Under the pieces are notes generated by a model that had not been told where the DNA came from, made no database searches, and was given only the letters and a program-made list of their open reading frames with translations. A stretch of 64,000 nt of DNA from a virus: IMG/VR virus record IMGVR_UViG_3300045051_001056, positions 33,746 to 97,745 of that record. One strand, 5' to 3'. This document shows, in pieces, positions 2,137-46,391 of the stretch. Within the stretch, counting starts at the first letter, position 1. Each line of letters begins with the position of its first letter. Position numbers and translations under genes: made by a program.

Positions 2137-2149
2137 ATAAAAACATTAA

Positions 2150-2209
2150 CATTCGTTGAGATTGCTAGTAAAATTCGTTTGGACCGGGGTTTGATTCCCC
2201 GCACCTCCA
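2150..2209 (+). ncRNA. tmRNA acceptor piece
   Basis: This piece supplies the 3' part of the tRNA-like domain: P2 strand TTCGTTTG, a complete T arm, the acceptor strand CACCTCC and the discriminator A. The 5' limit is uncertain. CTA at 2165-2167 can extend P2 by pairing with TAG in the coding piece. The bases after A73 read CAT, so CCA must be added after processing. Confidence 0.8.
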
Positions 2210-2372
2210 CATGCAGGAGTCGGTATTGGACATTTCTTATATACCGTTAGATTTGTATAGGATAATATCGACTCCCCTTTCTACAACGTAATCGCCAATT
2301 ACGACACCTCGGAGGAAGCAGGTGTATTTCGTCTGCTTAAGAAAGATGTGGCACGTCGAGGTTAAATTTTAT
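2210..2372 (+). ncRNA. tmRNA intervening segment, highly structured
   Basis: These 163 bases join the mature 3' end to the mature 5' end and must be cut out. They are not unstructured. GGAGTCG (2216-2222) pairs with CGACTCC (2269-2275). CGTAAT/ATTACG (2287-2292/2298-2303) is a perfect hairpin. CCTCG (2307-2311) pairs with CGAGG (2357-2361). Two helices exclude each other: ACACCT/AGGTGT (2304-2309/2320-2325) and AAGCAG/CTGCTT (2316-2321/2333-2338). No ORF of note is present. It may be a processing scaffold or a second small RNA. Confidence 0.55.
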
Positions 2373-2489
2373 GGGGGTGATCGAGTTTGACAGCGAAAGA
2401 ATAGGGTAATTGAGAGTGTTAGTAAGCGCAAACGGCAATCAGTTTGAAATTGGTTTTCAGTCATCAAGGATGGCTGCTTAATCACGCCT
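2373..2489 (+). ncRNA. tmRNA coding piece
   Basis: It starts with the acceptor strand GGGGGTG and the TGATCGAGTTTGACAG region, followed by a PK1-sized segment, the resume codon and the tag frame. Only about eight bases separate the tag stop codon from the terminator stem. The usual downstream pseudoknots are therefore absent and the coding RNA is minimal. Confidence 0.8.
2428..2481 (+). CDS. tmRNA tag peptide reading frame
   Basis: Read from resume codon GCA, the frame encodes ANGNQFEIGFQSSRMAA and stops at TAA. The terminal Met-Ala-Ala fits the small hydrophobic C termini recognised by ClpXP-type proteases. The first residues ANGN resemble the AND/ANN start seen in many tmRNA tags. There is no start codon; translation would enter only by trans-translation. 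Confidence 0.75.
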   Translation, partial: ANGNQFEIGFQSSRMAA

Positions 2490-2519
2490 AGCCCCAGCGA
2501 AATGGGGCTTTTTCTTTTT
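2490..2519 (+). terminator. Intrinsic terminator of the tmRNA
   Basis: A stem AGCCCCA/TGGGGCT (2490-2496/2503-2509) with loop GCGAAA is followed by a T-rich run (TTTTTCTTTTT). It ends the tmRNA transcript. Confidence 0.85.
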
Positions 2520-35600: not shown

Positions 35601-36732
35601 ACATATCACCAGCTTTAGTTCTTAGTTTGATTACCAAATCATCGCTTGCCCCTTGCTCTATCTCATGCAATGCTTGCTGTATCTCATCATGTATTAATGT
35701 TCCCTGATTGAGCAGAGATTGTGATACATTTTTCCACATAGTCATAGAATCCATGGCCGTAACCATGTCATCGGCGCTGGCATCTTTGGCATTGGCTATT
35801 CTTAATGCGAATTTTTTGTGAGAATCAAATAGTCTCCTTAGATTGTCAATAGTAAAATTTCTTCCATCAGATGTAAACATATCGTTAACATCATTAAGTA
35901 GTGATTTTTGTTCGACAATCATGTCTTGTTTTTTTTCCCTAATCCTATCGATTCTTCGCACTAAATCTTCTATCCTTTCATCGTTAGGTTGAACTATTTT
36001 CCTCAATTCCTGCAATTCCCTTTTCAGCGTATCTTCATTTGTTTGAAGCTTCCCAATCAAAGAATTAATGGATTTGATTTTTATTTGTGCCTGCCTTAGT
36101 ATTAATGGAATACCGCTATGCAAGCCTTTAATATCCTTAGGATTGATATTTTGATATATCTCAATAAAGTCAACATCTTCGTCCAATATTGGGAGTTCCT
36201 GCATTTCATCTCTTGTGACGGGTATATCATTTATATGATTTGATACATCTTCTCCAAAGCCAATTTCAGTATTTTCAAATGCATTTGAAATGGATGCTTC
36301 ATCATACATACTCTGCTCACCTTCATTTGATATGGAGTATAAGTATGTTTCATCAAATTCACCATCTTCCATTGGAGGCTGATCGATTCCTGGGCTAGCA
36401 TATACTTCATCATTAACAGAATTTCCCCAATCAATATTGAATTTAGTGTTATACTTCTTGCCGGTGGTGAGATTTACCTTATCTGGAGTTGTCCATTTGC
36501 CCTTATCAAGCACTAGCACGCCATGGTTTGAATCATTTTCTAGGTTATAATTATTGATACTCTTCTGATAATCAATAATTTCTTTACTAGTCTTAATTCC
36601 ATCACTCACATTCAATTCTTCTAAAAGTGTAGCATTCTCCTTTAGGTACATGGTGATACCAGCATCAGTTCCATATCTCTTGATATATTTTTGAAGCTTT
36701 TCGTCCTGTATGTTTTCTATTCTACACGCCAT
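32602..36732 (-). CDS. Giant virion cargo-type protein, 1376 aa
   Basis: This is the last gene of the structural/RNAP arm. The first 200 residues are acidic and polar. Residues about 210-290 are long charged helices (LIGKLQTNEDTLKRELQELR, VRRIDRIREKKQD), probably coiled coil. Later parts are helical, with a hydrophobic segment near the C terminus (YYMATLYGAYLLLASIVAG). No catalytic motif is recognised. In crAss-like phages the giant proteins next to the RNAP gene are packaged in the virion and injected with it. Its ATG overlaps the stop of the 3219-aa gene by 1 nt. Confidence 0.7.
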   Translation of the reverse strand: MACRIENIQDEKLQKYIKRYGTDAGITMYLKENATLLEELNVSDGIKTSKEIIDYQKSINNYNLENDSNHGVLVLDKGKWTTPDKVNLTTGKKYNTKFNIDWGNSVNDEVYASPGIDQPPMEDGEFDETYLYSISNEGEQSMYDEASISNAFENTEIGFGEDVSNHINDIPVTRDEMQELPILDEDVDFIEIYQNINPKDIKGLHSGIPLILRQAQIKIKSINSLIGKLQTNEDTLKRELQELRKIVQPNDERIEDLVRRIDRIREKKQDMIVEQKSLLNDVNDMFTSDGRNFTIDNLRRLFDSHKKFALRIANAKDASADDMVTAMDSMTMWKNVSQSLLNQGTLIHDEIQQALHEIEQGASDDLVIKLRTKAGDMFLKESQSFVKNMKQDDLEKAEDIDIIRRKTMTIADTRIKILSAVDGFIKRANSRTQLEVNKIRKRVRGLFDDIRGKINPDIFWEKDDDGNYTGNLIGRISSNFHTDKSEMESKFYKNIDDSVRIKDAAKRIARQQEAVVEKNTWLRNRTYTINPEEIFTEEGREKVKKKIISITGDPEYAEDRINDAILKYETFKKNFSYKKEEFQRQKDSGEIDSDTALVAKIDAYERNNSPIAYIKYIKKDDIGRDIRIFQFIDNYITQIPLSKFSNGDSTRYYNSEFKKSILENPLAKKFYYEYINLMEEMLSYLPSYSKKGLAPNFIPAVRDTVWNRVSRRGLKGFFSGLGQNLINSATTPASDEEIRVEVDEFGNPVRSIPVKYMRSIDMADRSKNLEDIMYKFTEMALTYKHMSNTEGMVLLGNHFIKEAKAVLKNSDGTPITDSLGPKLVDRGLINASKMLQHTIDANIYGNKYDDETWTHTKIKFFDKKKNMIKVIGSTPNTVKIIEDFNKMSTSLGIEEASEAILKKYPNQVIIVTEKDAYKDLEDRMNQLEQDLDDKKITESEYKSLSSMYESAMKVLGRNVDIAKAADIGIKMSYMKAFWYNIFPGVGNLGFGNISILNHATARLDFNPTEARASILEAMHSSLKSIRPSSLHKNKAYNMAQKFGVTIDVSEAVLKNKSYDLNLFGPMGFMSSSEYINRVATLLAMMRHIKIQDSSGKERSLYEAFNDDGEWNTAEFGENKDWNGDVGNDMENKEFYKFSNKVKKINRALHGNMDADTTPEIKRHLIGRLLAQYRLSWMAEGIANRFDSKRYDEILERTEEGRYVTTFKFFKDNGILDGFATMFKLMAFQGEDAFSNRKMSAIDKAMVIANVRKTFHEIYYMATLYGAYLLLASIVAGDDDDKGFLYASMNMLNRIMSDISFYSNPGTLAQMINNPIPTLSIYMDFSRFIYASERYLAGDDYYDEEKLLEKFNKQFPILNVYHKIQYNMDRPLLRNVQ

Positions 36733-39700
36733 TATTCACATTTTGTTTTGAAAATTCCACGCTCAACAGCATCTCTGAATGCAAATCTAACATTTTTTTC
36801 TGAATTACGCAAATACTCCACCACGGTAGAGCCTAATTGAGCCATTGTGCCACCATTTGCTATTATATTTGCAGTATGTAATGTCCTTGGAACATCCGAT
36901 GTAATTATTACTGAGGCGTTAGATAGTTTCTTGCCAAGCTCCTTGGCCTTATTTATTCCATTTTGAGTGAGCCTAGTCTGTTCTGATCTAAAATTGCCAG
37001 AGACATTATCCTCAGTTTCACCATGGCGCACAATATTAATAATGCCATTTCTACTTTTGATTTGGAAGGTGTCGCCGGGGCTGCTTTCCATTTTGGTATA
37101 TCTTGTTCTGAAATTATTGTCAAGATTCTGCGGCCTGCCTAAGGTATTCCATAATCTCATCAATCCAAATGCACTATTATGAGTTATTATAACCGCATTA
37201 TCTGGGGCTGATTCGATTAATTTATTTAAAGCTGATAATACATTGGTACTAAAATTGGTAAAGGATTCCCCATTAGCTATTGGCATATCTGGGTTGTTTA
37301 TAATTATATCGTCCACCATTGCTACGGCCTCCTTAGACTGTTTCGTACCAACCAAATCCTTTAAATCCAATGTTCTAAAATTGGGCTCAACAAGTATTTG
37401 TGGCTTCTGAAATTCTATTCCAATAGATGCTTTGTCGGGATTGTCTCTCCTGAATTGTTCTAACGATCTAAAGTAAGATGCTTCATCGCCCTGAAAATCT
37501 TCTAACTTCGGTAATTCTGTCATTTTTTTGGGTATTTTCTTCGCTCTCGGCAGAGCAACGTTGCTTTCTTTCCACTTCATCTCAAATTCTAATTGTTCTG
37601 AATGCGACATAGGTTTGGTGGTGGTTTCCATAGGTTTTAAGACTTCAAATTCTATAGCCGCTGCACCATCTTTAAATCTTTTTATATTATCTATTCCCTC
37701 CTGCGTCCATCCTTCTTTATACCATGTGCTTAGATACTCGGGGGTTCCCTTAGGATAAATTGCAGTTATTTTTGTTTGAACTTTCTTAATAGTCCCATCG
37801 GCAGATATTCCAGACTGAGTGATAATATCCCCCACTCTAATGTTATACTTTTGCATTTCTCCAACACTTCTCGTGGTTCTGGTCCTCAATCCAGCCTCTA
37901 TCATATCAATAGAATGGGGATTTGGTCCCAATAGTTTTTTAGATTCTGAATTTGCCACCTGAATTGTTCCAAATGACAATTTGCCAGATACAAGATTTTG
38001 GGGAATACTAACTACTGGAACAGAAACATCTTTTCTTTGTGGAATTTCCTTAACCTTATCAACCAGCGTCATCATATTTATAAACGCAGCCTCGTAAACG
38101 CTGTTTTTAGACGATTTCTGACCATTTTCGTTTTTAAAGGTTATAGAGTTTAACTTTGTGAATAACTTCGCAAATGACTCTAAAAATGCCCTTAAAACGT
38201 TTTTACCCTTTGTTATGCCAATTTTCTTTGCAGTTTCGGGTGAAATTTGAACCTGCTTCATCTGTGTCTGAAATTTTGGTCTTGACATAAGATTTGCCAC
38301 AAATTCTTCTGGAGAATTAAAGCTGTACATAGTTAACTTTAATTCATTTCTACTATCCGTATCATCTGGATAGAAATGTTGTGCAATTGAATCTATGTGC
38401 TCATCGTGAGATATAGCTGTTAGAATATATGTCCAGTCAGCATTAAGGGTTTTCCCTGTTACTATACTTATTACCGGAACATTATCCATAGAGTTCGCCG
38501 CATCCCTATATAACGCATCAACCGTATCAGAGATTTTCTTAAATGTTTTATTACCATTCTTGCCAAGAGAATAAGCCTCCGCCATCATAGCGTGATTTAA
38601 TTCGTGGGCAATAGTTTCGTGTGCATACTCTATACCATATTTATCGATAACTTCTGACATCTGTTTCTTGTAGATGCATATCTGACGTTTTTCTAGTTCA
38701 TATACGGCAACCCTACCCTCTGGGTCATTTGGTTCATAAACCATTTTGACATTATTCATATAGTCGCCCATAGACTCAGCCAATGCACCACTCCAGGCAA
38801 CGTTCGTATTCTCAGAGTTTGAGAAGAAGCTTTTTAGGTCTTTCACATACGAATTGTGTGGAATGTCTGACATAAGTTGGTCTGACGAAAAGCCAGAGTC
38901 AACCGCCGTTTCTGAACCGAGTGGTCTAATATCCTTTAATAATTTGGGAGTAACCCTTTCGCCATAACTACCAGAGTAATCTGAGAACGAAGGTGTTCCC
39001 CTTCTATTGATAGAGGCGCTACCCCTAGTAGGGATTTCGTCATATCTAGCAAATCCGTCAACCAAGGCTTCAGGGTTAAATTTGTACAATTTTATGTCGC
39101 CACCAACATATGATGATATATAGTTTTTGTATGACGGTTCTCCAGAATCATCAATAGTTATTATTCTTCCCAGAAATTCTCTATCCACGTTGTCGAACGA
39201 TTTAGAAGATGTGTCCACATTTATTCTAACGTAAGACTCCTTAGACTCCTTATCCTTAAATAATTTTCTATTAATTTTTGATATAATAGAAGCCTCTTCC
39301 GGATTATTCTGAAAATATTTCTCAACAAACTCAGCACTTCTATCCACGGAGATATCATCACCTTTCAATAGCATTGACACTTGGTCATTTACGCCCATCT
39401 TATCGAGAATATCGGCGTCCATATACTTGAGAGAACTAGTCATTTTTTGAAGTCCACCCATTAAGTATTCGTATTTAACCATATCCTCTGCAAATTTTCT
39501 ATACTCTGGATTATCGCTGGTGGCTAATTCATAAAATCCTAATGTCAAATTTTCCGCAGCAGAACTATCAGATATCCTAGCCTCCATGGTTACGAATCTG
39601 AGTTGTTCATCAGATTGCAATGTCTGAATAAATAAGTTGTTTGATAAAGCTCTTTCTTTCTTAAGCCTAATGAGATCGTTGGCCAACTGATGGTTATCGA

Positions 39701-42700
39701 CTAAATTTTCAAATGTAACACCATCCAATAGGGGCATTTTAGAGAAAACGAATGATTTGAATTCATTGGCAATATTTCTTTGGGCGTTAAATGTTCTCTT
39801 TGATTTAAACATACTACCCTTAGTTCTTTCAATATCAGACGTAGCCTGAATCAACATTGGATTGTTGTAACCCATAAGTTTTCCAATCGCATTCTGAACC
39901 TTTAGGGCGATTGATATATTGTGACCCGATGCAGTGATTTTATCGTTGTCGTCAATCTTCCATAGATATTTACCATTCTTAAGCTCTATGAATGCACTAC
40001 CATTTCTGGACCATAATGTAGATAAATTAGCCAAATCGCCAGATTGCATACCCTTTGATGCACGATATATGGTTCCCGCATTTTGATGATAGTTTGTACC
40101 AAGTCCACGAGAGTCTATTGTTGCAACGTTGGTTGCATCGGAGAACGGCCACGCTTTATCGCTAAGTTCTATGAACATATTGATAAAGTCTATTTGCTTA
40201 CCAAGATATTCTTTAGAGTTTCTTTGATCCGGAGGAGTCAATTCTACTTCACGAAAATCGTTTGGGGAATATGCTTCACTTTTCAGTGAATCGACATACG
40301 CGTCCAACTCCGACTTATCTCCAGAATATCTATTTCGAAGTTCATTAATGATTTCCTTAGCAGCGGTTGCAATTCTGGTATCACCTTCTGCTCCTTTTTT
40401 GAATTTTGCAATCGTGCCATTCGATTCAACCAAGTGGTCAGTCAGCATCTTAATCCCTTCTTGTCGAAGAAATCTTGCATTTGTAGATAGACTAAGTCCA
40501 TTTCCGCTAGAATCAGATAATATTGACATTAATGCAGACACATTGAATGTTTGCACGTTTAAATTATTCTTAGCCAACACAGGCTTATTTGCATTATCCA
40601 CTGCCCCAGACTGTTGGGTTCTAATATTTTCTATCCCAGAACGTTCGTGTGGTTTACCGTTAATATCTATATAAGTATTCTTATTGTTGGGATTTAGTCT
40701 ACCAAGTTTCAATACCTTATCTTTATTATTCTTAAATTTTGCAAACACGTAATTTTTAACTTTTCCACTCTCTGGATCTTTTACCATTATTGCGATATTT
40801 TTATTCTCCATCTTAATGGCCGCAGAAATGATTTTGGAAAATATTGCAACGCCAGACTTTGAGCCGGATTGTAACATATAATCACTAATCTGGCGAACAT
40901 AATCGCCAAATTCCCCCTTTGGATTATTTGCTATAACAAGAGAGGCCTCTTCCAGTAAATCTGGTTTCTCTAATGGTGAAAGTGCTTTTTTTATGACATC
41001 TTTATCAGACAGAACACTCTCGAATATTTCGAAGTAAGAATCTTGCAAAGCCTTCTTAATCAGGGAATCGGGTGTTTCCATATCTTTGACTAGCAACTCT
41101 CCGTACTCCTGGTCTGAAAGCATTGTATTCATTAGGTCTGCTATATCGCTACTCTCGCCAGTATCGGTAGCTTTAGATAAAGACCTCGCAACCTTCTCAT
41201 CAATCTCTCTTGCTCTATCAATTTTTTTCAATAATCTTTCATCATTTTTTACCCTACTGAGCCACCAAGAATTTATTACATCATGATTAATAATTATATC
41301 ATTATTTTCATCAAATGATATGGCATTAGATGGGATTGATGATAATTTTCCATCTTTTGTAAGAAATGTATTTCTCCAATATGTGTACAATTTGTCAATA
41401 TCAAAGTCAGATCCCATCTGAGTAGTAATCTCTGGAGGAACTATTGCAACATCTCCATATGATTTTGGTAAAAATCCTACTATCCTACCAATAACTTGAG
41501 ACGAGTGTCCTTGGTTTGGAATGCGCATTCCAATAATTGTAAGTAATTTTTCAGCCTCTTTTTCATTTTCGCCAAATTTACTCAAGTCAATTAAATTAGT
41601 CTTATCGTCAACAAAATCTTTTATATTGGCAAGTTTATTCATTTCATTCCATGCCTTAAACGGAAGAAGTATATCCATATAAGATATCCCATCTTTTGTC
41701 GAAGACATATATTTTAGTCCAGTTTCTGCATTATACCACTTAGTCTTTATTAGGCCATTAATATTATTAATCTTATCTGCATCTAGTGTATCTATTCCCC
41801 GACCAAGATCTGGGAATTGAACGAATGATCCACCTGGCTGTTTGGGTTTAATAACCCTATTGGAATACATTGAGAATAATATATTTTCCAATTTAGATGC
41901 AACGGCGCTAAACAATAATGGGATCTTGGCCTTAGCAGCATTCTGGACATGTTTAACATTGTTTTCCATCACCCCTATCCTGGATGCCTCTGAGGACATT
42001 ACACTAACGGCCTTATCCTCGTTAAACAACCCATCATTATATCCCAATTCACTATCCACATCTCTTTCTTCTGCCTGGGATAATGCAATCCTAATAGAAT
42101 GCTTTCTCTCTAAGAGGTCATTACCATTAACTTTTTCACCTTTATATTTAAATTCTTTGTCGAGAAGTCCTTCTAATATCGAAGTATCTGCCTGTGTTAC
42201 AAGTCTAATCTTGTCATGAGATTCGTCATATGGCAAATCTTGTTGATACCCAAAACCGGCAAATTCCATATTGGTTCTACCCCTGGAAAATGATTTAACC
42301 AATTCATCTTTTGGTAAGAAATTTCCTTTATCATCATAGATCGTCATTATATTTTCTGCGCCAACCTTAGCCGCCGACACGTGTACGAGCCTATCAATTT
42401 TCTCATCCTCCATAACCTGACGAAGGTCATTGAGCGGACCATTCATGGTTTCTGTTATTTGTCGTATCAGGGGCATCTCCGCAGATTTTACATAAATCTT
42501 TTTAAAATATAGTACTCCATCAATATCAACAAATCTATGAGTAACTTGCCTGGGCTTTCCCGCACCTATGATTATCTTTCTCAAGTCGGATTCATCCAGG
42601 TCTCTCCCAGAATTATATTTACTTTTTAAGTGAGTATATTCATTCTCTAATAATTGCCCATACTTAAATAATAAGTCTAATTTGTGATCCAGGGAGACAA

Positions 42701-45700
42701 ATTCAAGAGCATCTGATCCAACGGTGGATAAGTCTTTTATATCGACATTTAATTCTTTTGCCAGAGATTTTTTGTATTCGTCTCCATTGGTTTTCATATC
42801 ATTCACAAAGACTGCACTATATGTATCTGGCAATCTCTTCCCGCTTTTTAGAACGACGCCTTTGGCAACAGAAATTCCCGGGGCATTATCTGACGCCAAT
42901 CTCTTCTGATATTCTGCCATGGCATCATCTATTGCGAAATCTAATGTCTGTTCGCCCCTATTTAAGTGTTTTGCAATAAATCCCTTTACCGACTTATTGA
43001 TTTCAGCCGGATCGCCAGATATTAGCATCATTGAATTGTGGACAGCCACTTGGCTATTGAGGTTTAGATCTAATAATAGATGTAATAATGCCTGCTTTTT
43101 ATTCTTAAAAACAAATTCTGTTCCCCCCCATTGATTTGGAGCGAAGTATCCCAATTTATTATTTAATGCGTATGATTGATTTACTGGTATATCCTTAATC
43201 AATTGACCATCGACTTCAACTAATCCATTTTTCTTAAGAAGTTCAATATCATCCTCAGCCTTTTTGATGAAATAATCCGCCAGTTTGTCCTTGAAAAAGT
43301 TCTCGTACTCTGGATTTTCGAGAGACATTAATTTAATAGCAGATACCTGCTTGCCATTAACATCTATTTTTTGGTTTGGAACTATATTGTTAGAGGCATC
43401 TCTTTTAAAAATCTTGTTCAGGAATTTGTATGAGTAAATAAATTGACCATTATCAACATAATGTGCAGAATATTCATTTCTTAGCCTCTCTCTCCCATTA
43501 GAATCTGTTGTAATTATGGCCAAAATTCTTCCAAGCTCTCCACGAACAATGCAAAACGCGTCATCAAGGGCGTCGCTTTTCATTAGGACATCTTTATTTA
43601 TGGAAGCCATATTACCTTTTTGTCCTGGAATAACTATGCCCTTCGGTAGGCTAGTCCTTGGCAACTCAAAAACACTTGTAAGATGCTTGTCGGCTTTAGT
43701 GGTATCCCACACAAACATGGTGTCTTTACCATTATTCTGAAAGTCTGAGATTAAGCTTAATACTGCCTCAGATTGAGCCATTAATTTTCTTGTAGAGGCC
43801 TTTTTCGTGCCATCCTTTCTTATGCCATCCTTATAGCCAATCCTCCAAGAATTTCTAAATGGAGTATTATCCCTTCCAAGGTTTTTATTTTTAAGCCAAG
43901 AAGCCTCTCCCGTAAAGATAGAGTTCCTCAAGGCCTCTATCAATGGGAATCTTTTAATTCCATTCTCCTCAACTTTATCGTTGATTAGGTCATGAAGCAT
44001 ATTGGTTTGATAGGTGTTGATGCCAAAATTATAGTGGGCATTCCCATCGACCCCAGTACTCATATTAGCAAAATATCCATTTTTATGTCCAGCCTCAATA
44101 TTGGCAAGAAACTTAAACGCCGACTGATCCAACTTCCTCAATATTACATCTGGAGAATCATTGTCCGCTATTCCGTTCTCACCTTTTCCACTAAGAGTTT
44201 GCTCTATAGCAGAAAATATCCCAATGGGATTTCCCGTTTCGCTATATCCAAATTGGGAATCTAGGGATTTCCCCGAAAAAGTATATCCCTTTCGCTTATT
44301 ATATGTCTTGGGGAGCCTTAGTTCATCATATGTTTTATTGCTCAATCTTATACCAAGGCTGGCGAAAGCCTCTTTAACAAATTCAACCAATTCGGCATCA
44401 AGTTTAGGCCCAATCAGAGAAATATTTTTTTTCCTATATTCCCTTGCATCACTTATACTTTTAGAAAAGCTGTCAAATATATTCTTGCGCTCCTTAGGAT
44501 TATTATATAAAACTCCAGATATCATGGATTTCCATTCATTAAAAACAACCCTATCGGCTCTCCTTCTCTCTGAATTATAAGTTGACAAAGTGCTATACTT
44601 AGTATTCCAAGAATTCATTATAAACATATTCCTATGCCTATTCATTGCAATGGCAAATTGAATTCTTAATTGGGCGTCACCCTCTTTTAAATTGTCAGAC
44701 AATTGTCTGAACATATTATTGGGAATAAATTTATCCAAGATTGATGCCTCATCCTCTATGGCCCGCAATATTCCATCAACACTCCTGTCTGCAGTCATAG
44801 ACGTAAGCGCCAAAACCTTCTGATAAGCTCTCTCGGTATCCATGTGTCTTGCTAGTCCCAATGCATTTTCGCTAGGATCTTTTAGTGACCACATCAATAT
44901 CTTCACGGAATCGCTCGAAGTGCTAGATTCACTCCTGCTGAACATGCCATCATTATTCCAATCCTCTCCGCTCAAATAATCTGTGTCGGACGTGTTGATC
45001 ATTTCATCGTCTTCACTTTCAGATTCTATTTCATCCTCAGACATTTCTCTCAATCTGTCCTCATTTGAGATAGAGTTAATTACATCTTCTGAAACATCTA
45101 TGCCCAATCCTCGCAACTCTTTTATGGTAGAATCAACGATCCTCTTCCATGCTGTTATGTCAAGAATCTTTCTTACGCTTAGCGCATTATTATATGCTAT
45201 ATCGCGTTCATCTTCTGAGATTGAATCGTCCTCAGACAGTTCGGCCTGCCTATTATAGTGCGATTTCAGAGAATTATATGCAACATTTAACATTCTACGC
45301 ACGCTGACATTATTGCCTTCTTTCCTAATCAAGGTAGAAAATGCATCCTTAATTACTCCAATGCCCGCATGTTTCTCCTCACTAGTTATAGCTTGATTAT
45401 CTGAAGTCTTTATAATGAAGTCTCTATCAATATTTTTTTCATCTGACGGAACCTTGATGGCGAAAATTGACGCTTCTGGCCGCGCACCCCCCTGAACCTC
45501 ATCAACAGATTTTGCAGAATGGTCTAATAAGCTTGAGGCCACACTTACAAAATCGTTATATGCGCTACTAGGTATTTTTAATATCTTGGACACCCAGTCA
45601 AGAAAGTCTTGGAATATATTTTTCTCACCAATTTGAGGAGATGAAATGCTAGATAATTCTTTTATAAATTTAGAATTAGTAAACCCCTCGCTAATAAATT

Positions 45701-46391
45701 CATTTAAATTTTTTAATCCATAATATTTACCTTTTGCCTCAGCTTCAGTGATATTATATTTCTCCTGTATATTAGACAACACATGATTATATATGTCCCT
45801 TAATTTCTCCACGTGGGTTGATTGTGGATTATTATTAATATATCTGGCAGATATAGAGTGAATTATTTCATGAATTATTGCATTATGGGATAACCCATTT
45901 GGGGATGTTTGACTATAGTCTCCAAATTCAGATATTCTAATGGAATGTAATCCTGAATTATATTCAGCCAATGTAATATTACCCATACTGTTTTCCAGAT
46001 AGTTAACCGGCTCTAGGTCGATCCTAATATTATAATCGCCAAGACTAATTACATTGCGTAATGCATTTATTATTGGACTTAACCCAGGATTTCTAATATT
46101 GATTCTATCCAAAACCTCTCCGACAGTGGAATCATTTCTGCCATCAAAAATATCCCTCCTAACAAACTGATCGGTAGGATTACCCAATCTCCTGGCTTCA
46201 TTAAATCTTGCTTCATGTATGGCGGATAGCTCTTCCGCAGACAACTTGCCTTGCCAATAGCCATTCATGGGTAGCCCAAGGTTATCTATATTACCCTCTG
46301 TTTTATTCCATATGGAATATGCGAGAGTTGTTCCAACTTTTTCTTCTAAAGATTTAAATGCTTGAGAGGATTTATTTGGACAATTTATCAT
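36732..46391 (-). CDS. Giant virion RNA polymerase multidomain protein, 3219 aa
   Basis: Residues 1662-1666 are DFDID within TQMGSDFDIDKLYTYW, the metal-binding DxDxD motif of the crAss-like single-chain two-barrel RNA polymerase (known from phage phi14:2). A zincin-like HEIIH site lies at 174-178, within NAIIHEIIHSIS, and a second, HELNH, at 2596-2600. An ASCH-like region (MIEAGLRTRTTRSVG) lies near 2800-2920. A histidine phosphatase domain lies at the C terminus, with its halves swapped: GESF 3041-3044 and ITHN (His3071) before RHGE 3122-3125 and SDVPRT 3165-3170. Such polymerases are injected to transcribe early genes. Domains may be separated by proteolysis. Confidence 0.85.
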   Translation of the reverse strand: MINCPNKSSQAFKSLEEKVGTTLAYSIWNKTEGNIDNLGLPMNGYWQGKLSAEELSAIHEARFNEARRLGNPTDQFVRRDIFDGRNDSTVGEVLDRINIRNPGLSPIINALRNVISLGDYNIRIDLEPVNYLENSMGNITLAEYNSGLHSIRISEFGDYSQTSPNGLSHNAIIHEIIHSISARYINNNPQSTHVEKLRDIYNHVLSNIQEKYNITEAEAKGKYYGLKNLNEFISEGFTNSKFIKELSSISSPQIGEKNIFQDFLDWVSKILKIPSSAYNDFVSVASSLLDHSAKSVDEVQGGARPEASIFAIKVPSDEKNIDRDFIIKTSDNQAITSEEKHAGIGVIKDAFSTLIRKEGNNVSVRRMLNVAYNSLKSHYNRQAELSEDDSISEDERDIAYNNALSVRKILDITAWKRIVDSTIKELRGLGIDVSEDVINSISNEDRLREMSEDEIESESEDDEMINTSDTDYLSGEDWNNDGMFSRSESSTSSDSVKILMWSLKDPSENALGLARHMDTERAYQKVLALTSMTADRSVDGILRAIEDEASILDKFIPNNMFRQLSDNLKEGDAQLRIQFAIAMNRHRNMFIMNSWNTKYSTLSTYNSERRRADRVVFNEWKSMISGVLYNNPKERKNIFDSFSKSISDAREYRKKNISLIGPKLDAELVEFVKEAFASLGIRLSNKTYDELRLPKTYNKRKGYTFSGKSLDSQFGYSETGNPIGIFSAIEQTLSGKGENGIADNDSPDVILRKLDQSAFKFLANIEAGHKNGYFANMSTGVDGNAHYNFGINTYQTNMLHDLINDKVEENGIKRFPLIEALRNSIFTGEASWLKNKNLGRDNTPFRNSWRIGYKDGIRKDGTKKASTRKLMAQSEAVLSLISDFQNNGKDTMFVWDTTKADKHLTSVFELPRTSLPKGIVIPGQKGNMASINKDVLMKSDALDDAFCIVRGELGRILAIITTDSNGRERLRNEYSAHYVDNGQFIYSYKFLNKIFKRDASNNIVPNQKIDVNGKQVSAIKLMSLENPEYENFFKDKLADYFIKKAEDDIELLKKNGLVEVDGQLIKDIPVNQSYALNNKLGYFAPNQWGGTEFVFKNKKQALLHLLLDLNLNSQVAVHNSMMLISGDPAEINKSVKGFIAKHLNRGEQTLDFAIDDAMAEYQKRLASDNAPGISVAKGVVLKSGKRLPDTYSAVFVNDMKTNGDEYKKSLAKELNVDIKDLSTVGSDALEFVSLDHKLDLLFKYGQLLENEYTHLKSKYNSGRDLDESDLRKIIIGAGKPRQVTHRFVDIDGVLYFKKIYVKSAEMPLIRQITETMNGPLNDLRQVMEDEKIDRLVHVSAAKVGAENIMTIYDDKGNFLPKDELVKSFSRGRTNMEFAGFGYQQDLPYDESHDKIRLVTQADTSILEGLLDKEFKYKGEKVNGNDLLERKHSIRIALSQAEERDVDSELGYNDGLFNEDKAVSVMSSEASRIGVMENNVKHVQNAAKAKIPLLFSAVASKLENILFSMYSNRVIKPKQPGGSFVQFPDLGRGIDTLDADKINNINGLIKTKWYNAETGLKYMSSTKDGISYMDILLPFKAWNEMNKLANIKDFVDDKTNLIDLSKFGENEKEAEKLLTIIGMRIPNQGHSSQVIGRIVGFLPKSYGDVAIVPPEITTQMGSDFDIDKLYTYWRNTFLTKDGKLSSIPSNAISFDENNDIIINHDVINSWWLSRVKNDERLLKKIDRAREIDEKVARSLSKATDTGESSDIADLMNTMLSDQEYGELLVKDMETPDSLIKKALQDSYFEIFESVLSDKDVIKKALSPLEKPDLLEEASLVIANNPKGEFGDYVRQISDYMLQSGSKSGVAIFSKIISAAIKMENKNIAIMVKDPESGKVKNYVFAKFKNNKDKVLKLGRLNPNNKNTYIDINGKPHERSGIENIRTQQSGAVDNANKPVLAKNNLNVQTFNVSALMSILSDSSGNGLSLSTNARFLRQEGIKMLTDHLVESNGTIAKFKKGAEGDTRIATAAKEIINELRNRYSGDKSELDAYVDSLKSEAYSPNDFREVELTPPDQRNSKEYLGKQIDFINMFIELSDKAWPFSDATNVATIDSRGLGTNYHQNAGTIYRASKGMQSGDLANLSTLWSRNGSAFIELKNGKYLWKIDDNDKITASGHNISIALKVQNAIGKLMGYNNPMLIQATSDIERTKGSMFKSKRTFNAQRNIANEFKSFVFSKMPLLDGVTFENLVDNHQLANDLIRLKKERALSNNLFIQTLQSDEQLRFVTMEARISDSSAAENLTLGFYELATSDNPEYRKFAEDMVKYEYLMGGLQKMTSSLKYMDADILDKMGVNDQVSMLLKGDDISVDRSAEFVEKYFQNNPEEASIISKINRKLFKDKESKESYVRINVDTSSKSFDNVDREFLGRIITIDDSGEPSYKNYISSYVGGDIKLYKFNPEALVDGFARYDEIPTRGSASINRRGTPSFSDYSGSYGERVTPKLLKDIRPLGSETAVDSGFSSDQLMSDIPHNSYVKDLKSFFSNSENTNVAWSGALAESMGDYMNNVKMVYEPNDPEGRVAVYELEKRQICIYKKQMSEVIDKYGIEYAHETIAHELNHAMMAEAYSLGKNGNKTFKKISDTVDALYRDAANSMDNVPVISIVTGKTLNADWTYILTAISHDEHIDSIAQHFYPDDTDSRNELKLTMYSFNSPEEFVANLMSRPKFQTQMKQVQISPETAKKIGITKGKNVLRAFLESFAKLFTKLNSITFKNENGQKSSKNSVYEAAFINMMTLVDKVKEIPQRKDVSVPVVSIPQNLVSGKLSFGTIQVANSESKKLLGPNPHSIDMIEAGLRTRTTRSVGEMQKYNIRVGDIITQSGISADGTIKKVQTKITAIYPKGTPEYLSTWYKEGWTQEGIDNIKRFKDGAAAIEFEVLKPMETTTKPMSHSEQLEFEMKWKESNVALPRAKKIPKKMTELPKLEDFQGDEASYFRSLEQFRRDNPDKASIGIEFQKPQILVEPNFRTLDLKDLVGTKQSKEAVAMVDDIIINNPDMPIANGESFTNFSTNVLSALNKLIESAPDNAVIITHNSAFGLMRLWNTLGRPQNLDNNFRTRYTKMESSPGDTFQIKSRNGIINIVRHGETEDNVSGNFRSEQTRLTQNGINKAKELGKKLSNASVIITSDVPRTLHTANIIANGGTMAQLGSTVVEYLRNSEKNVRFAFRDAVERGIFKTKCE

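Follow-up and report, generated by a model that had tools for sequence, protein, structure and literature searches.

A circularly permuted tmRNA gene in a crAss-like phage and a probable phage lineage of two-piece tmRNA

The 64,000-nt stretch of DNA analyzed here, hereafter the window, corresponds to positions 33746-97745 of a 97,745-base virus record and contains a circularly permuted tmRNA gene at 2145-2519, in which the 3' half of the molecule (2145-2209) precedes the 5' half (2373-2519), with 163 nt between them. The gene probably specifies a phage two-piece tmRNA that supports ribosome rescue, and probably belongs to a phage lineage which came from the one-piece tmRNA type of Bacteroidota, lost pseudoknot 1 and was permuted independently. 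Permuted tmRNA genes have been described in mitochondria as well as in bacteria. The bacterial ones fall into three main lineages, those of Alphaproteobacteria, Betaproteobacteria and Cyanobacteria (PMC11915505). The literature search, in which subscription papers were mostly outside the scope, found no description of permuted tmRNA in phages of Bacteroidota; some genomes already annotate the gene as 'SsrA', and no paper recognizing the permutation was found.

Results

Structure and detection of the gene

The original prediction had placed the gene at 2150-2519. Its location was correct and every element named for the reversed order of the halves was found, while the left end had to be extended to 2145, to which P2 reaches back. 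The elements are the following:

2145..2209, + strand: acceptor (3') piece with the P2 3' strands, T arm, acceptor 3' strand and A73; CCA not encoded (RF04321 match, P2 pairs, sequence)
2185..2201, + strand: T arm CGGGG-TTTGATT-CCCCG (5/5 pairs in the sequence; within the RF04321 alignment)
2202..2209, + strand: acceptor 3' strand CACCTCC (2202-2208) and discriminator A73 (2209), the expected 3' end before CCA addition (7/7 pairs with 2373-2379)
2210..2372, + strand: intervening segment, expected to be removed, with three predicted hairpins (fold)
2373..2519, + strand: coding (5') piece with G1 at the expected RNase P cut, D-loop region, P2 5' strands, tag frame and terminator (RF04321 match to 2481; terminator scan)
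2373..2379, + strand: acceptor 5' strand GGGGGTG, with the G3-U70 alanine identity pair (sequence; compensatory changes at pairs 5 and 6 in relatives)
2392..2423, + strand: P2 5' strands, three helices of 6, 7 and 10 pairs (duplex fold; native-versus-swapped test, 42 genes)
2434..2481, + strand: tag frame GNQFEIGFQSSRMAA and TAA stop (2479-2481), with GGC at 2434 as the probable resume codon (homology)
2458..2476, + strand: 8-bp hairpin just 5' of the stop codon, in a position like that of helix 5 of other tmRNAs (fold, -8.8 kcal/mol including the stop codon)
2490..2519, + strand: intrinsic-terminator-like hairpin (2490-2509) followed by a T run (terminator scan: 1 found, shuffle mean 0.4)

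The predicted pairing of the acceptor strands over 7 bp, the pairing of the P2 strands and the terminator after the tag were all borne out. By duplex fold, the P2 helices join 2392-2397 with 2174-2179, 2405-2411 with 2160-2166 and 2414-2423 with 2145-2154. The fold of the intervening segment is moderately more stable than those of shuffled sequences (z -2.0). The tag frame of the window gene finishes Met-Ala-Ala-stop, in agreement with the expected Ala-Ala end. By homology, GGC and not the GCA upstream of it is the most likely resume codon.

The covariance model RF04321 (tmRNA_permuted), which merges RF01849, RF01850 and RF01851, matches 2160-2481 with 56.1 bits (cut-off 47; E 3.1e-8 for 64 kb and 4227 families), which, together with the conservation of the form in related phages, supports the identity of the gene as a permuted tmRNA. 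None of the three lineage-specific models exceeded its cut-off in the window, the best being the betaproteobacterial RF01850 with 23.1 bits (cut-off 84). ARAGORN, which had been proposed as a check, did not find the gene as run here and reported only a tRNA-Met in the window. A layout search, defined by a T arm, a 7-pair acceptor stem with G3-U70 and the 3' half upstream, gave a single occurrence in the window and none in 60 simulated 64-kb sequences. The DNA similarity search against known phages with the first 8 kb of the window and with its 3' half returned no crAss-like tmRNA; the search with the permuted gene of the related contig G006 and other permuted genes reached gut crAss and isolate records, via the T arm. 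Elsewhere in the window, 443-522 on the + strand resembles a degenerate tRNA interrupted by a long insert (RF00005, 21.9 bits, cut-off 29).

The phage and the genomic position of the gene

Its proteins place the phage in Crassvirales, as had been proposed. The terminase (TerL), portal and major capsid protein match phrog_6681, phrog_6547 and phrog_11589, which are families of Crassvirales. The best-matching Crassvirales records, e.g., cr85_1, show 39-44% identity to the terminase. About 150 crAss-like contigs were collected from IMG/VR by terminase-based searches. The suggested search at the syntenic place was successful in G006, whose permuted gene is flanked by orthologues of two window-phage genes that lie close to the tmRNA of the window, at 37216-37539 and 37550-38224 (genome coordinates). 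When coordinates were compared in the crAss-like contigs, permuted and one-piece genes alike proved to lie on the strand opposite to the terminase gene, some 8-20 kb upstream of its start, and the gut phage cr50_1 has the same arrangement; in many related Crassvirales, this slot is occupied by a one-piece tmRNA. In the two closest relatives (TerL 70-74%), no tmRNA was detected in G002, the contig of which spans the slot, and G004 likewise showed no tmRNA layout. Therefore, the tmRNA is not essential.

Several other observations were made in these genomes. G004 has a below-threshold match to the freshwater-1 sRNA at 2446-2506 of locus L104 (39.3 bits, cut-off 72), the terminase genes of some relatives (L007, L008, L017) have about 1000-1100 codons, as if an intein were inside, and the window encodes at 36732-46391 (- strand) a 3219-residue protein in which a histidine phosphatase domain and, more weakly, an SprT-like domain were recognized. 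Contig G104 was rejected as a crAss relative of G006, as it encodes none of nine window-phage proteins looked for, including terminase, portal, capsid and DnaB.

Distribution in phages

Among the crAss-like contigs, RF04321 was above cut-off in G006, G073, G112 and G114, the last two of which were found by pattern and carry distant crAss-type terminases; G072 displayed the permuted layout by pattern, with an intervening segment of 337 nt. The one-piece model RF00023 was above cut-off in G009, G015 and G027; among 46 further records another 15 passed, such as G061, G070, G071, G096, G098, G100, G134 and G135. The 5'-end pattern yielded 116 loci in viral contigs (37 permuted, 63 one-piece, 16 unresolved), a sample that leans to the G006 type, from which the pattern was derived. 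Moreover, ARAGORN called a permuted gene (tmRNA*) in the gut Crassvirales cr7_1, cr124_1, cr272_1, cr273_1, cr50_1 and cr10_1, and in two isolates with Bacteroidota hosts, Chryseobacterium phage MA9V-3 and Maribacter phage Panino. The RF04321 scan covered six of these eight phages and was above cut-off in cr7_1, cr50_1, cr10_1, MA9V-3 and Panino and below it in cr272_1. The genes of the gut Crassvirales, MA9V-3 and Panino are labelled SsrA in their records, where the permutation is unremarked, and their tags are unlike that of the window gene. The tmRNA of Cellulophaga phage Calle_1 is one-piece. Contig G083, considered as possibly permuted, was rejected, as no 3' half was found, and was entered as standard in the terminase tree on weak grounds. 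In cr50_1, a RAGATH-22 RNA (155.6 bits; 570-736 of L485) precedes the permuted gene by about 450 nt.

The window comes from an assembled record of the IMG/VR type and not from an isolate, so that the halves of a one-piece gene might have been joined in reversed order during assembly. The probability of such an artefact is negligible, however, as the same order recurs in several independent contigs, complete gut genomes, two cultured isolates and a prophage on a 1.6-Mb contig.

tmRNA genes of Bacteroidota hosts

One genome per species was scanned for a 22-base 5' end resembling the one of the G006 gene. This end was found at no fewer than 119 bacterial loci, which, among the matches listed, bore Bacteroidota titles except one Clostridium-titled MAG. 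The host loci among the matches listed comprised 111 one-piece, 0 permuted and 8 unresolved genes; the expectation that Bacteroidota normally use one-piece tmRNA was thus correct for all 111 resolvable genes. RF04321 matched in 1 of 393 Bacteroidota genomes, in a scan with stricter filters in which weak matches can be lost. This sole permuted locus belongs to a prophage on a 1.6-Mb contig (with integrase, DNA polymerase, DnaB, primase, rIIA and rIIB), and the same genome also has its own one-piece tmRNA (160 bits). Because the hosts show the permuted form only within an integrated phage, the permutation probably arose in phages. A further RF04321 match, in genome G162, was set aside; its tag, ANDNVYGARLAA, is of the alphaproteobacterial type and the contig was taken as misbinned. 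Searching bacterial genomes for proteins like the phage glucosaminidase yielded no match. SmpB was found in none of the phages tested and is present in hosts, and therefore host SmpB would be used.

Conservation and loss of pseudoknot 1

Forty-two permuted phage genes were compared. Pair 5 of the acceptor stem is GC, CG, TA or AT among them; the stem was part of the selection of these genes, and its covariation is supporting rather than independent evidence. P2 played no part in the selection, and its native strands pair with a mean of -16.3 kcal/mol vs. -12.1 for swapped ones (0 of 5000 permutations as good). The window P2 5' strand likewise pairs better with its own 3' half than with the 3' halves of the 41 other phage genes. 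The intervening segment varies from 15 to 337 nt among phages.

These results bear on the possibility that the gene is a functionless relic or a chance look-alike. The silence of ARAGORN and the lack of a detectable gene in G002 and G004 would fit such a reading, but it is very improbable, as the 7-bp stem with G3-U70, the native P2 pairing, the tag frame and the terminator are intact and conserved in relatives.

A feature that the original prediction missed is the absence of pseudoknot 1. The resume codon lies at a median of 60 nt from G1 in 34 phage permuted genes vs. 95 nt in 109 hosts, and the distance in the phage genes leaves no room for pseudoknot 1 before the tag. The window gene has 10 nt from P2 to the resume codon. 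Judging by this spacing, the phage genes lack the approximately 35 nt that hold the pseudoknot. Pseudoknot 1 is not obligatory, since plastid tmRNAs have few pseudoknots or none. Two-piece tmRNAs typically retain pseudoknots 1 and 2 (PMC3985003), and the phage form is therefore smaller than the known ones.

Most genes use GGC as resume codon (101 of 109 in hosts; 21 of 34 among the permuted phage genes, some of the others having GCA, GAC or CCA), while that of the RF04321 consensus is GCA (GCA AAC GAU AAC). The first residue of the phage tags is mostly Gly and the motif GKVIxLF..PVRLAA is frequent. The Bacteroidota 5' sequence GGGGNTGACTGGTTTTGACAGC is exact in 14 of the 42 phage permuted genes, including that of G006, although most of these genes were found by a pattern requiring part of it. 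The window gene keeps only TTTGACAGC of this end, its D-loop deviates from that of its relatives (ATCGAGTTTGAC vs. ACTGGTTTTGAC), and the exact 22-base Bacteroidota mark is absent from it.

Discussion

The window gene shares with bacterial two-piece tmRNA the order of the halves, the acceptor stem with G3-U70, the T arm, P2 between the pieces, the tag frame and the intervening segment. It differs in being phage-borne and in having relatives with a Bacteroidota-type 5' end and a Gly resume codon. In the Caulobacter two-piece tmRNA the resume codon is situated 82 nt from G1 (PMC1168896), and not about 60 nt as in the phage form. With the Bacteroidota one-piece genes, which have GENNYALAA-type tags, the relatives of the window gene share the 5' end, and GGC as Gly resume codon is common to both; the host genes, however, are not permuted, are about 397 nt long and have room for pseudoknot 1. 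The one-piece Crassvirales genes (e.g., G009, G015, G027, G135) have the same slot and the same orientation relative to the terminase gene, yet they are not permuted and their resume codon lies near 84-90 nt (G015, G027). The permuted gene of marine phages such as Melnitz is also phage-borne, but it is of the alphaproteobacterial type and linked to a glutamine riboswitch (PMC9004378).

By homology with two-piece tmRNAs, host RNase P would cleave a single precursor at 2373, trimming would take place near 2209, the acceptor piece would gain its CCA, and the two RNAs would remain paired. Host AlaRS would charge the acceptor piece and host SmpB would bring it to stalled ribosomes, where the addition of the tag would free the ribosomes and lead to degradation of the product. 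It is also conceivable that the RNA acts as a decoy, which would draw SmpB, AlaRS or ribosomes away from host tmRNA and thus inhibit host trans-translation. The absence of pseudoknot 1 is in line with this idea, as is the form without a reading frame from phage DS6A, reported to inhibit endogenous tmRNA (cited in PMC11915505). A decoy would, however, have no need of a tag frame with its resume position, stop codon and Ala-rich end, all of which are retained in diverse phages with varied tags, and this role is unlikely. Ribosome rescue is thus the function that we favor.

As regards origin, the gene might have been acquired, already permuted, from Alpha- or Betaproteobacteria or Cyanobacteria. 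Acquisitions of this kind are on record for other phages, e.g., Melnitz (PMC9004378), and among the three old lineage models the betaproteobacterial one scored highest. Against this, all three scored far under their cut-offs, the consensus of the known permuted genes contains UUCGAC and resumes at an Ala codon (GCG in Caulobacter, PMC1168896), and the relatives of the window gene carry the 22-base 5' end of Bacteroidota, with Gly as the usual resume codon, so that acquisition in permuted form is unlikely. Descent from a Bacteroidota one-piece gene, with permutation in phages, is favored because of the GGC resume codon, the weak matches of the old lineage models and the host data. The phage lineage would accordingly have started from the one-piece type, lost pseudoknot 1 and become permuted independently of the alphaproteobacterial, betaproteobacterial and cyanobacterial genes. 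The independent permuted lineage of the original prediction is hence supported rather than proven, by the one-piece hosts, the Bacteroidota 5' signature of relatives, the mostly Gly resume codon and the one-piece forms in the same slot. It is a phage lineage, as was proposed, but one common to other phages and not peculiar to this one.

The terminase tree requires at least five changes of form among phages with a tmRNA, a count that is a rough guide, as the deepest branches are long and unreliable. The form would therefore have switched repeatedly. Gene exchange is a more likely cause of this switching than new permutation, because unrelated phages share the tag motif. It is somewhat favored that these genes constitute a fourth two-piece lineage, born in phages of Bacteroidota from the host type, devoid of pseudoknot 1, alternating with one-piece genes at the Crassvirales slot and spreading between unrelated phages. 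If so, Crassvirales phages would bring their own ribosome-rescue RNA with tags unlike those of the host, and the step from one-piece to permuted gene would be open to direct study, with one-piece relatives occupying the same slot. The cultured phages that carry the gene, MA9V-3 and Panino, make a further lineage testable now.

Two minor observations concern the tags. In two permuted tmRNA genes (L267, L281), the tag frame runs to about 40 codons, which is unusually long. In MA9V-3, a gene annotated as ClpX (PV245944, locus L492, 26938-27777) is situated about 4 kb from the permuted tmRNA gene, and a link to phage-coded degradation of tagged products is possible.
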